From NCBI GenBank assembly GCA_025358575.1, contig JANYJA010000059.1, forward strand, positions 1 to 35,201: DNA of 35,201 bases, written 5' to 3'. Under the pieces are notes generated by a model, which saw only the letters and a list, made by a program, of their open reading frames with translations, was not told the origin of the DNA and did no database searches. The number at the start of each line of letters is the position of its first letter. The first letter of the stretch is position 1. Positions 32,473-35,201 of the stretch are shown here, in pieces. Both the position numbers and the translations under genes were made by a program. The DNA is from Terriglobia bacterium. GTDB taxonomy: Bacteria; Acidobacteriota; Terriglobia; Bryobacterales; Bryobacteraceae.

Positions 32473-33117
32473 ATGTCGAACATCGCCGGTAAAGCGTACG
32501 CAATGAATGTGATTACTCCGATCCGCAGGTACACTGCATGGATAAATAAGGGGATTTTCATCATAGCGAACCTGATACCGAAAACGACGCTTGGCCTGCG
32601 CACTCTTTCTCTAATCCACTATGCACGTTGGGTCGTGATTACGAACAAGCAATTTCCCCGGCTAAGCCCAGACCAACCGGCGGAACATCTGAAGTATTCT
32701 TACATGTTGTTCTGCAGCAATTTCAATGGCAGCTGGAATCAGTACGTCGATTCCTTTTCTTCCGCGATCCCGGATGGCCTGGATTTTTTCTGGTTCTGGA
32801 ACGTAAAATATCCGCGGTCCCTTCCCATGCTGCCCTTTCACAGATATATTTCTTCGAACCAGATCTGGACGGACCACTACTACAATGCCTACCCAATGGC
32901 GTCGGCTAACGACGTGAAGTCTGGCCAGACGGTGAAAAAAGCCCTATTGACTTTTGTTAGCGACACGCGGACGGTAGATTCGGACACGTTTAAGGCAAAA
33001 TACAACTTACTTCTGCTAGAGCTTCAGCATGACCTGAGCCAGATGGCGCCGAACCTTGTTGTCAGCCTCTCGGCGGCGTCGGTGGAACGCCGGGAACAGA
33101 ACGAATCGAAGGTTTGA
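32473..33117 (+). CDS. Unknown protein, paralog of the next gene, DyP-associated
   Basis: A 214-aa protein with no named domain. The middle contains ARWVVI, YMLFCSNFNGSWNQYVDSF and FWFWNVKYP, which line up with ARFFVL, YLVFSSNFHGELEPYLEGM and the following helix of the next gene, so the two are paralogs. The F-x-S-N-[FY]-x-G-S-W pattern recalls uncharacterised proteins found next to DyP-type peroxidases in other bacteria. The strand-helix-strand pattern suggests a ferredoxin-like fold, as in DyP itself, but this is a guess. No signal peptide or membrane helix is seen. The ATG at 32473 has AGGA about a dozen bases upstream; a second ATG lies ten codons in. Confidence 0.7.
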   Translation: MSNIAGKAYAMNVITPIRRYTAWINKGIFIIANLIPKTTLGLRTLSLIHYARWVVITNKQFPRLSPDQPAEHLKYSYMLFCSNFNGSWNQYVDSFSSAIPDGLDFFWFWNVKYPRSLPMLPFHRYISSNQIWTDHYYNAYPMASANDVKSGQTVKKALLTFVSDTRTVDSDTFKAKYNLLLLELQHDLSQMAPNLVVSLSAASVERREQNESKV

Positions 33118-33132
33118 TCAAGGACGGCTTAC

Positions 33133-33795
33133 ATGGCAAACAAAAGAGGAAACGCATACGGTCTTACGGTGTTCTTTCCGATTCTCCCGCACGGACCCCA
33201 GAATTCCCAAGACGGGGTAAACGGCCAGACTTTCGCGGCGCTGATTCGCTATGAGCTGCAGCGTGTCGGCTGCAATGACGAAAGCCCAATGGCGCAGGTC
33301 CCCAACACCTACCTTGCGCGATTCTTCGTGCTGAACGACGTTGTGCACCAAGGTAAACCCGCCCACCTCGAACACCTCAACTCAAACTACCTGGTGTTTT
33401 CTTCTAACTTTCATGGCGAGCTGGAACCGTATCTGGAAGGCATGTGGAACGCGATTCAAGACACCATACAAGCCGTTCTGCAATACTGCGTTGGTTTCGA
33501 GAATGTGCGGGATGCCCCAGGGTTCGTCGAATACATAAAGAAGTGCCAGGTTACGACGACGTTCTACTTCAGCGGAAGCACCGAGGACTCGCTGGCCGAA
33601 CAACTGAAGGGGCTCTATATAAAGCAGGAGCTTTCTGCATTCGCCTACGAGAATCAAGGTAAACCCGCGGCGGAGTTACAAGCGGCGTTTCGGGAGTTTA
33701 TGAAACGCACTCAGCCGGAGAATCTGGCCGGACCCACCTGGAAGCCAGGCGCTCATCGTCTGGAAGATGCCGTTGTGGAGACATATCAAAAGTGA
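33133..33795 (+). CDS. Unknown protein, paralog of the previous gene, coupled to DyP peroxidase
   Basis: A 220-aa soluble protein of unknown function, 15 bases after its paralog, with CAAGGACGG as ribosome binding site. Residues about 60-125 (NTYLARFFVLND, LNSNYLVFSSNFHGELEPYL and the next helix) align with the preceding gene, while the N-terminal 55 residues (TVFFPILPHGPQNSQDG...) are different. A C-terminal helical segment (about 160-220) is rich in charged residues. Its TGA overlaps the GTG start of the peroxidase gene, so the two are probably co-translated and may act together. Confidence 0.75.
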   Translation: MANKRGNAYGLTVFFPILPHGPQNSQDGVNGQTFAALIRYELQRVGCNDESPMAQVPNTYLARFFVLNDVVHQGKPAHLEHLNSNYLVFSSNFHGELEPYLEGMWNAIQDTIQAVLQYCVGFENVRDAPGFVEYIKKCQVTTTFYFSGSTEDSLAEQLKGLYIKQELSAFAYENQGKPAAELQAAFREFMKRTQPENLAGPTWKPGAHRLEDAVVETYQK

Positions 33796-35201
33796 TTACT
33801 TCATTGGACCTTGGTGACATCCAGGGAAATATCGTTAAAGCGTATGGCCGGTACGGATTCCCGGTTGCCCGCCACGTGTTCTTCCGCGTGGACCGGCCTC
33901 AGGCCGGACGCACATTTGTTACTCGGATTACTCCTCTTATCACGACTTCAATCCAGTGGCCGGACGCGTTGAAAGCCCCACTGGTCACTTTCAACATCGG
34001 CTTTACTTATGAAGGCTTGAAGCACTTAGACATCCCCGAAGACACGCTCCATAGCTTTCCAGACGAGTTTGCCATGGGGATGCAGGCTCGGCGTGACATT
34101 ATTGGCGACACGGGACCGAATCACCCCAAACACTGGGACCCAATCTGGCATTCTCACGATCACTCTCAGCAGATCCATATCGTCATTTCTCTCAATGGGC
34201 GGAATGAGGAATGTCTTGAAAAGGGGTATGTGCAGATCCTCGACATACTGGCGCAAATACCCGGCGTCACGCAGTTATCTGGACATCGCGGCGAGGGTGG
34301 AGACAATCTGGCTTATCAATCGGCGGCGGTGGTGGGAGACGGAAAAGAGCACTTCGGATTCAGCGACGGGATCAGCAACACATACTTCGACGGCTGCGGC
34401 GAGAACCCTAAATTGGTAGTCGGCGGGGGGAAGCCAACGGGCCTTGACCCAAGCACGCTTGCGGGCTGGGCGCCGCTGCAAGCCGGCGAGTTCGTGCTGG
34501 GGCACGTCGACGAATCCTTCACCTATCCAACAGCGCCTAGCCCTCCGCTGTTCTCGCGCAACGGAACCTTCATGGTGTATCGAAAATTGCACCAGAATGT
34601 AGGCACATTCAACTCTTACCTCGATGAACATGGCCAATCCTTCCCAGGAGGCAAAGAGGCCCTCGCGGCGAAGTTCGCGGGGCGCTGGCGCAATGGCGCG
34701 CCGCTGGCATTATTCCCCACTGAGGAAAGTGCAACCCGGTTCGGCGAAGAATTCGAAGCGCTCAAAAAGAAGTCTCATAACAAAACCGCCACAGAACAAG
34801 AAAAGGCGCGTTATGCCGAGTTGCAGGTCCAGTTGGTGGGGTTCGATTACGGCGACGACAAGAAGGGCGCGAAATGCCCCTTCGGTTCACACACCCGTCG
34901 CACGAATCCGCGCAGCGCGCTACAGTTCGAGAGCGATAAAGCCTTCGCGACACCGGGTGCGCTCAGCAACCGGCGCCGGGTTTTACGCCGCGGCCTGACG
35001 TATGGCAGAGTGACGGATCCGGCCAGGGACGACGGCGATCATGGAGTCATCATTTTAATTCTGAATGCGGATTTGAGTCGTCAATTCGAGTTTGTGCAAC
35101 AACAATGGATTAATTTCGGAAATGATTTTAGATTGGGAAACGATCAAGACCCGCTTCTCGGAAATCACGGGATTAACGAAAACGCGCGTGGAAGGGGCAG
35201 G
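33792..35201 (+). CDS. DyP-type heme peroxidase, C-terminus beyond the window
   Basis: An open frame of 470 codons without a stop, from a GTG overlapping the previous stop (GTGA), running off the right edge. DyP peroxidases oxidise dyes and other bulky substrates with hydrogen peroxide using heme. The N-terminus LDLGDIQGNIVKAYG is a family opening. The distal motif GXXDG is GFSDG at 189-193 (D192 the acid-base Asp), and the proximal heme ligand is H367 in CPFGSHTRRTNPR. The long form (over 470 aa) fits the class without an export signal, and none is seen here. The two paralogous genes upstream are its likely functional partners. Confidence 0.93.
   Translation, partial: MITSLDLGDIQGNIVKAYGRYGFPVARHVFFRVDRPQAGRTFVTRITPLITTSIQWPDALKAPLVTFNIGFTYEGLKHLDIPEDTLHSFPDEFAMGMQARRDIIGDTGPNHPKHWDPIWHSHDHSQQIHIVISLNGRNEECLEKGYVQILDILAQIPGVTQLSGHRGEGGDNLAYQSAAVVGDGKEHFGFSDGISNTYFDGCGENPKLVVGGGKPTGLDPSTLAGWAPLQAGEFVLGHVDESFTYPTAPSPPLFSRNGTFMVYRKLHQNVGTFNSYLDEHGQSFPGGKEALAAKFAGRWRNGAPLALFPTEESATRFGEEFEALKKKSHNKTATEQEKARYAELQVQLVGFDYGDDKKGAKCPFGSHTRRTNPRSALQFESDKAFATPGALSNRRRVLRRGLTYGRVTDPARDDGDHGVIILILNADLSRQFEFVQQQWINFGNDFRLGNDQDPLLGNHGINENARGRGR

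Follow-up and report, generated by a model that had tools for sequence, protein, structure and literature searches.

Paralogous SNF proteins as probable dedicated partners of a large group of family-V-like DyP-type peroxidases

The end of a 35,201-nucleotide contig from a Terriglobia bacterium (G000:C120, analysed whole and called the window here) raises the question of what two small proteins of the SNF family contribute to the DyP-type peroxidase encoded directly behind them. All three genes lie on the forward strand. Gene A (32473–33117) encodes an A-type SNF protein of 214 amino acids, gene B (33133–33795) a B-type SNF protein of 220 amino acids, and the peroxidase reading frame (33792–35201) starts with GTG and runs for 470 codons without a stop until the contig end interrupts it. 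Because this GTG start sits in the TGA stop of B, so that the two genes have the four nucleotides GTGA (33792–33795) in common, their translation is likely to be coupled. Overlaps between SNF and DyP genes of 8 nt in Granulicella and of 4 nt in locus L065 were found among relatives. Fucosidase and transporter genes lie upstream of A; we rejected them as members of the module because the annotated plasmid neighbourhoods examined contain no fucosidase. A search of the organism's own genome did not find the rest of the peroxidase outside the window, nor a P450 gene elsewhere, the latter result being weak because that search had no positive control. A third component of this module, if any, would lie past the contig end.

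The preliminary description of this DNA had taken A and B for paralogues with a common ARxxV and SNF-x-G core, the second gene overlapping the peroxidase start, and each of these points is borne out. A and B are full-length paralogues, aligning over 198 columns with 22% identity (BLASTP, E 4e-10), and profiles of 10 A-type and 10 B-type proteins match over 183 columns with a probability of 99.0 (E 2.8e-18). The core reads ARWVV (32623–32637) and SNFNG (32716–32730, within SNFNGSW) in A, and ARFFV (33316–33330) and SNFHG (33403–33417, without the subsequent SW) in B. In a tree of the window and 47 further loci, from which near-copies were excluded and into which only SNF matches under E 1e-10 were admitted, the A clade (supports 100/100) and the B clade (100/97) were both recovered, and B grouped with the N-type domains of two-domain proteins (97/86). 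The F-x-S-N-[FY]-x-G-S-W proteins that the same description named are a real family, whose homologues recur beside DyP genes. Neither of the two outcomes that the description gave as refuting, a lack of profile homology between A and B or homologues without a link to DyP, was therefore obtained.

SNF is an undescribed protein family. A had no match in Pfam or NCBIfam up to E 1, and B had no credible match in either, a Pfam CID-domain hit at E 0.026 being below the family cut-off and judged to be chance. The same judgement applies to AcrIC5, which was matched by one of 41 SNF members (Pfam, E 0.0031). No NCBIfam match was obtained at E 0.01 among 19 members, and searches of PDB sequences with profiles of the A type, of the B type and of both together yielded matches no better than chance (best E 0.047). 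In titles and the openings of abstracts, with subscription journals mostly outside the scope of the search, no publication dealing with SNF proteins or with fusions of the P450-SNF-DyP type was found; a paper on a Leptospirillum operon was unrelated.

The third reading frame is identified as a DyP-type peroxidase by its motifs, and its activity is predicted. It matches PF21105 with 49.2 bits (E 8.5e-13, cut-off 27.5) and TIGR01413 with 64.6 bits (E 9e-18), the latter below the cut-off of 100.5 for a protein that is interrupted by the contig end. Its nearest solved relative is the family V (class C/D) enzyme of Deinococcus radiodurans, DrDyP (DR_A0145; 8re2/8re3), to which it is 31% identical over 437 columns. 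The GXXDG motif appears as GFSDG (residues 189–193, 34356–34370) with Asp192, and by motif Arg264 (34581–34583) and His367 (34890–34892) would correspond to the catalytic Arg248 and the axial His324 of DrDyP (PMC10820274). G189, D192, Arg264 and His367 are invariant among 19 DyPs. The DrDyP gene itself has an SNF gene directly upstream, one where the window has two, and is followed by a gene of the catalase family. The DrDyP paper contains neither the word 'operon' nor the word 'neighbor' (PMC10820274).

The link between SNF and DyP is very strong. A DyP gene lies just downstream on the same strand in all 80 genome loci returned, which are 80 of 308 confirmed relatives, include 49 records named Mesorhizobium and were sampled with a bias, since DyP-linked proteins had served to build the scan pattern as well as the profiles of SNF. 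In 64 of the 80 loci SNF and DyP form a single ORF (40 of these 64 proteins were used in alignment A4). A draw of 297 Acidobacteriota genomes contained SNF in 14 and a DyP of this kind in 16, and in 14/14 of the SNF-bearing genomes the DyP gene was adjacent and on the same strand (Fisher p 3.4e-22, not corrected for shared ancestry); the association exceeds chance. On plasmids, DyP adjoins SNF in all 23 neighbourhoods examined out of 59 SNF records. Seen from the DyP side, for which the SNF table held 51 records and was part of the full lists, 81 plasmid DyP records comprised 42 listed with at least 33.8% identity to DrDyP, 18 listed below that value and 21 unlisted. The first group adjoins SNF in all 41 cases covered out of the 42 listed. 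Among the 18 listed below 33.8%, SNF was present by coordinates in 5, and among six of the other 13 (H103, H104, H107, H112, H114 and H120) in 2. HMM searches placed an SNF gene immediately before DyP in L134 and L135. The six DyPs without SNF form a single branch (96/87) of a DyP tree of 53 rows, from which L008 was excluded as too short, and one SNF gene (L119) had no DyP within about 5 kb. Across eight phyla the adjacency is near-obligate in the samples searched, and the preliminary idea of a conserved peroxidase module is supported; the fusions, the third heme enzyme and the DyP branch without SNF go beyond that description.

Many of these modules contain further heme enzymes. The fusions observed are of the types P450-SNF-SNF-DyP, SNF-SNF-DyP (L075) and DyP-P450 (L098), and a single ORF in L121 carries both DyP and catalase matches. 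The module is often completed by a P450, fused or encoded by a neighbouring gene, or by a catalase-family protein, and many modules had no match to either in the stretch examined. In L025, L031 and L065 a P450 gene comes after that of DyP. PF00067 scored above its cut-off in L014, L015, L025, L031 and L065 and below it in L013. The cysteine of the ligand motif FxxGxHxCxG was present in all of the 33 distinct rows listed, some of which had one other substitution in the motif. No reductase domain was detected by Pfam in the three P450 fusions scanned. Canonical O2-activating P450s carry an acid before the I-helix threonine, which is used for O2 activation, whereas this acid is replaced by proline in 66 of 72 module P450s and kept as Asp or Glu in the other six; the threonine that follows is kept in 65/72.

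Several known systems resemble this arrangement in part. CYP152 peroxygenases have Arg-Pro in the I-helix, with a salt bridge to the fatty acid, and P450 fusions of the PPO type join a peroxidase/dioxygenase to a P450. P450 peroxygenases are reported to lack the acid-alcohol pair (PMC10988616), and CYP5619 to be a P450-peroxidase/dioxygenase fusion (PMC5919972). Like the peroxide-using CYP152 enzymes and the CYP5619 fusions, the module P450s have an altered I-helix acid and may share one chain with a peroxidase, although the peroxidase of the module fusions is a DyP and the threonine after the proline is mostly kept. Encapsulin-associated DyPs, in turn, have a dedicated protein partner, as the SNF-linked DyPs would, but the DyPs studied here best match family-V structures, and we know of no SNF protein that forms a shell.

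The predicted fold of SNF, which is weakly supported, is a ferredoxin-like alpha+beta domain, the building unit of dimeric alpha+beta barrels. In a model of the fused L075 protein (pTM 0.61, with no readable interface), both SNF parts follow the order beta-alpha-beta-beta-alpha-beta, and the model of B from the window shows the first five of these elements, the fourth strand not being assigned. VIA matches of window B reached Z values of 5.4–7.6, the best (7.6) lying under the level that the tool calls safe; judged by title or by general fold class, the 50 matches listed belong to the dimeric alpha+beta barrels. Foldseek returned nothing at E 1e-3 for B, and in its top rows dimeric barrels stood alongside peptidases of the M16 and M20 families. 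The fold search with the fused model is uninformative on the SNF parts because its matches, DyPs that include encapsulin-associated ones, cover roughly residues 473–943 in the rows listed, and the absence of a family from that list is no evidence. SNF would resemble the superfamily of ABM, EthD, NIPSNAP, IsdG, chlorite dismutase, DyP and EfeB in its predicted beta-alpha-beta-beta-alpha(-beta) domain, but it had no credible sequence match to any solved structure or Pfam family. Profile comparison found no kinship with DyP (hhalign probability 0.3 over 10 columns), and thus gave no support to an origin of SNF by duplication of one half of DyP.

We propose, with a probability of roughly 60%, that A and B are diverged paralogous SNF subunits and the dedicated partner of a large group of family-V-like DyPs, working in a multi-heme, peroxide-using complex. 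A would pair with B, as would the two SNF domains that are linked in a fused protein, and the pair would dock on DyP, where it could control the access of bulky substrates or peroxide to the heme and could hold DyP beside a second heme enzyme. Such a complex would most likely be driven by peroxide or an organic hydroperoxide, not by O2 and NAD(P)H, because of the I-helix proline of most module P450s and the lack of a reductase domain in the three fusions scanned. The inactive, low-spin state at pH 7.5 of DrDyP made without the product of the SNF gene in front of its own also speaks for the partnership. Against it stand the weak fold support for B, the lack of profile kinship with DyP, the lone SNF gene of L119, the six P450s that keep the acid, the modules with neither P450 nor catalase match and the sampling bias. 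A lipid-like substrate is a guess, made because some linkers are transmembrane and a few neighbouring genes belong to lipid metabolism; a hydropathy scan (19 residues, threshold 1.6) placed hydrophobic segments between the SNF domains of L008 and L075 and detected no single-pass segment in A or B (maxima 1.16 and 0.71, respectively).

A different reading of the same fold is that SNF proteins are enzymes in their own right, small cofactor-free alpha+beta-barrel catalysts (like antibiotic-biosynthesis monooxygenases, EthD/NIPSNAP proteins, polyketide cyclases or muconolactone isomerases). They would catalyse a step that precedes or follows that of DyP in the same pathway, and fusion would merely join successive steps. 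Enzymes of this kind are numerous among the structural matches listed for B, a NIPSNAP gene lies within the L109 module, and polar core residues (the Arg of ARxxV, Ser-Asn, Trp and Tyr) are conserved within SNF types. Nevertheless, one Gly only reaches 90% conservation in a wide alignment of 19 rows, the D. radiodurans type has lost the Ser-Asn, the Z values of the fold matches are moderate, and most P450 fusions have a degenerate first SNF domain (its HMM match weak or absent), as would not be expected of a catalytic domain; we consider this reading unlikely, though the likeliest of the alternatives. It is improbable that SNF proteins are instead heme-handling or assembly factors with an IsdG/Cld-type fold, whether by loading DyP with heme or by binding heme of their own. 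Heme-binding alpha+beta barrels exist (PMC4835899), and one fold match of B is the heme oxygenase IsdI (4fnh, Z 5.4), but no His, Cys or Tyr is conserved at 90% in the 19-row alignment. SNF shows neither a conserved heme ligand in that alignment nor, by profile, the sequence kinship with DyP expected of the heme-binding Cld/DyP/EfeB group. In addition, crystals of DrDyP that had been produced in E. coli from the DrDyP gene contained heme (PMC10820274), and a loading factor permanently fused to its client would be unusual.

Mere co-regulation of stress genes, with no joint mechanism, could account for the observation that DR_A0145 and the catalase-family protein DR_A0146 are both among the raised or stress-related D. 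radiodurans proteins under UVC/vacuum (PMC5731708). The one-ORF fusions and the near-obligate adjacency demand more than this, and we hold such an explanation to be very improbable.

The proposed partnership may be extended to a bolder form, which we offer as speculation and hold to be unlikely. SNF proteins could be the subunits that organise a multi-heme oxidase, widespread and working without a reductase, in which an SNF barrel would keep DyP face to face with a P450 of the proline variant (or with a protein related to catalase), peroxide or hydroperoxide and product would be passed between the hemes, and DyP would stay silent until SNF docks. This silence would explain the behaviour of isolated DrDyP, which, made from its own gene alone, was inactive and low-spin at pH 7.5; DrDyP and some other homologues showed no activity at physiological pH, and both the substrates of DyPs and their role in the cell are described as unclear (PMC10820274).

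In summary, should the activity of a large group of DyPs depend on a partner omitted from past assays, those assays have used an incomplete enzyme. The P450-SNF-SNF-DyP fusions would be an undescribed way of running a P450 without a reductase. Because the solved DrDyP, inactive by itself at neutral pH, has an SNF gene adjoining its own, the partner idea is directly testable now.

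Gene A (32473-33117, + strand, 214 aa) and gene B (33133-33795, + strand, 220 aa), both ORFs of a protein family labelled SNF here, lie 15 nt apart directly before a DyP peroxidase gene that runs on the same strand from a GTG at 33792 through 470 codons, with no stop, to the last base of the contig (C120 of the source genome, of which the window is the entirety). As the preliminary description held, B overlaps the peroxidase start, the final 4 nt of B being also the first 4 nt of the DyP gene. A gap of 64 nt separates A from the end of an MFS transporter gene, which follows an alpha-L-fucosidase gene (PF01120; 29458-32408 for the two, with a mutual 4 nt overlap); the two genes appear to serve fucose use and to have no connection with the peroxidase module.

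Judged by sequence, A and B are paralogues. This had been proposed in the preliminary description, which named non-homology by profile comparison as the result that would count against it; profiles of A-type and B-type proteins (10 each) aligned over 183 columns with a probability of 99.0 and E 2.8e-18, and pairwise BLASTP of A and B gave E 4e-10 at 22% identity. A and B fall into separate groups (support 100/100 and 100/97) of a tree built from 67 SNF domains, so that the A/B split predates the operons compared. B joins the first (N-type) domain of two-domain SNF proteins (97/86) and A lies, with weak support (72/71), on the side of the second (C-type) domain and the single-domain proteins; the order of A and B in the window may thus be swapped relative to that of the fused proteins. 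No Pfam match was found for A and only one below threshold for B, with a single stray match over 41 SNF members; NCBIfam gave no match for A, B or 19 members, and PDB profile searches with SNF sequences returned no credible solved structure. SNF is a family found in none of these searches nor in the literature searched, attached to a known enzyme.

The earlier observation that similar proteins recur beside DyP genes is real and was under-stated; the linkage is near-obligate across the samples examined. Scanning of a genome collection with one peptide pattern gave 327 stretches and 308 confirmed relatives, and among the best 80 of these 308, DyP (custom HMMs) lies just downstream on the same strand in 80/80 and shares one ORF with SNF in 64/80, although the draw is biased, being redundant (49/80 records carry the name Mesorhizobium) and based on a query profile built from proteins already linked to DyP. 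With a slash for a gene border and a hyphen for a shared ORF, the arrangements are P450-SNF(-SNF)-DyP (60 of 80; P450 match weak in L035), A/B/DyP as in the window (5), SNF-SNF/DyP/P450 (4), SNF-DyP (3), SNF/DyP (2), A/B/DyP/P450 (2; L031 and L065), and one each of SNF/DyP/P450 (L025), SNF-SNF/DyP (L051), P450/SNF-SNF-DyP (L075) and SNF-SNF/DyP-P450 (L098). The last, from an Acidobacteriota genome, contains a natural DyP-P450 fusion of 957 aa (L098:6499-9372) directly 3' of the SNF-SNF gene. The DyP ORF at L031:3618-4580 is short (320 aa) and contains unread bases, so it is the record of this copy that is incomplete, and the gene itself is not clearly broken. Among 59 plasmid records matching a single-domain SNF protein, DyP was detected by HMM in 23/23 neighbourhoods examined; it lies upstream of SNF in Rhizobium rosettiformans (L016) and downstream in all the others. 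Co-occurrence analysis, also proposed earlier, covered 297 Acidobacteriota genomes: B as sole query was found in 7, a wider SNF profile in 14 (3 of which had supplied profile rows) and DyP in 16, and DyP adjoins SNF on the same strand in 14/14 (Fisher p 3.4e-22, shared ancestry ignored). The exceptions are two DyPs without SNF (L117, L118) and an extra SNF gene without DyP within ~5 kb (L119:5307-5876, - strand), in a genome that has an SNF-SNF/DyP module elsewhere; by eye, this gene resembles the Nostoc type. Overall, SNF-DyP occurs in Acidobacteriota, Pseudomonadota, Myxococcota, Bacteroidota, Gemmatimonadota, Actinomycetota, Deinococcota and Cyanobacteriota.

The association was also approached from the peroxidase. 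A tblastn search of plasmids with Deinococcus radiodurans DyP (DrDyP) matched 81 records; among the 60 listed, coordinates place SNF no more than 3 kb from DyP in 40/42 with at least 33.8% identity, a 41st (L129) has it by HMM, and the 42nd was judged by coordinates alone. Of the 18 listed records below 33.8%, coordinates show SNF in 5; HMM examination of six among the remaining 13 placed SNF right before DyP in two (L134, L135) and found none in four (L130-L133). In a DyP tree of 53 rows, the six SNF-less enzymes (L117, L118, L130-L133) group together as a single branch (96/87), whose neighbour is a long-branched, SNF-linked Myxococcales DyP (L028). In this small sample, the SNF partner is thus a feature of one part of the DyP tree, not of DyPs generally. 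A different conserved partner may belong to the SNF-less branch: its DyPs at L131:3586-4989 (Bradyrhizobium) and L132:3763-4983 (Nostoc) are each preceded by a hypothetical gene other than SNF, and these two genes are related (33% identity, 260 columns, E 2e-37).

Many modules include a third heme protein. Besides the P450s, catalase-family genes (PF00199, matches from E 6e-23 down to below threshold) lie next to SNF and DyP at plasmid loci L016-L020, L022, L107, L108, L112 and L114; at L121:5320-8064, DyP and catalase-family matches lie within a single ORF right after an SNF gene. The modules examined on Streptomyces (L111:4511-5524) and Nostoc (L021:6810-7850) plasmids carry instead a protein of 337-346 aa without a Pfam match. 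The two copies are 62% identical, which hints at an additional module component and at its movement from one phylum to another. The other modules gave neither a P450 nor a catalase-family match in the stretch examined around each. TPR-repeat genes, one with an adenylate/guanylate cyclase domain, lie 5' of the module in three alphaproteobacteria (L014:878-2509, L015:884-2647, L022:1656-3455) and are possible regulators. In Sinorhizobium chiapasense (L109:5904-6815), DyP is followed by a gene of the NIPSNAP family and by another SNF gene, the second of that module.

Alignment of 72 module P450s with one another, a set as redundant as its loci, fixed the position that we take to be the acid of the canonical I-helix motif: 66 have Pro there (65 Pro-Thr, 1 Pro-Gln), 3 have Asp and 3 have Glu; both P450s after window-like A/B/DyP (L031, L065) have Pro-Thr. 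This loss of the acid in most module P450s argues against ordinary O2 activation, in which the acid-alcohol pair has a role according to PMC9112060.

The comparison with the ferredoxin-like fold of DyP that was suggested earlier was made by structure prediction. In a predicted model of the natural SNF-SNF-DyP fusion of L075 (943 aa, 40-row alignment; mean pLDDT 74.5, pTM 0.61), both SNF parts have the order beta-alpha-beta-beta-alpha-beta (E3-12, H14-27, E48-57, E64-73, H76-95, E126-130 and E307-313, H317-333, E351-356, E362-367, H373-383, E428-431), hydrophobic helices lie in the stretch that separates the two, and the DyP part best matches DrDyP (8re2, Z 34.9, rmsd 2.9, 395 aligned). In the model of window B alone (41 rows; pLDDT 79.6, pTM 0.64), the fourth strand is unassigned; its VIA matches (best 3gz7, Z 7.6, rmsd 2.9, 97 aligned; others down to Z 5.4) are singly weak and belong to one fold group, antibiotic-biosynthesis-monooxygenase-like and other dimeric alpha+beta-barrel proteins, and Foldseek returned nothing at E 1e-3, with mixed folds in its top rows. 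SNF and DyP profiles did not match, so the two would share a fold at most.

The DyP of L020 is DrDyP itself, identical to 8re3 over 445 residues except at two positions, one of them engineered. Its gene, DR_A0145, has an SNF gene directly upstream. In PMC10820274, DrDyP is described as inactive at physiological pH, with a six-coordinate low-spin heme, and the authors speculate that it has partner proteins, naming encapsulin as an example; their text contains neither 'operon' nor 'neighbor'. We propose that A and B would pair with each other and that the pair would dock on DyP, where it could gate or feed the heme and bring the peroxidase close to a second heme enzyme, the probable oxidant being peroxide.
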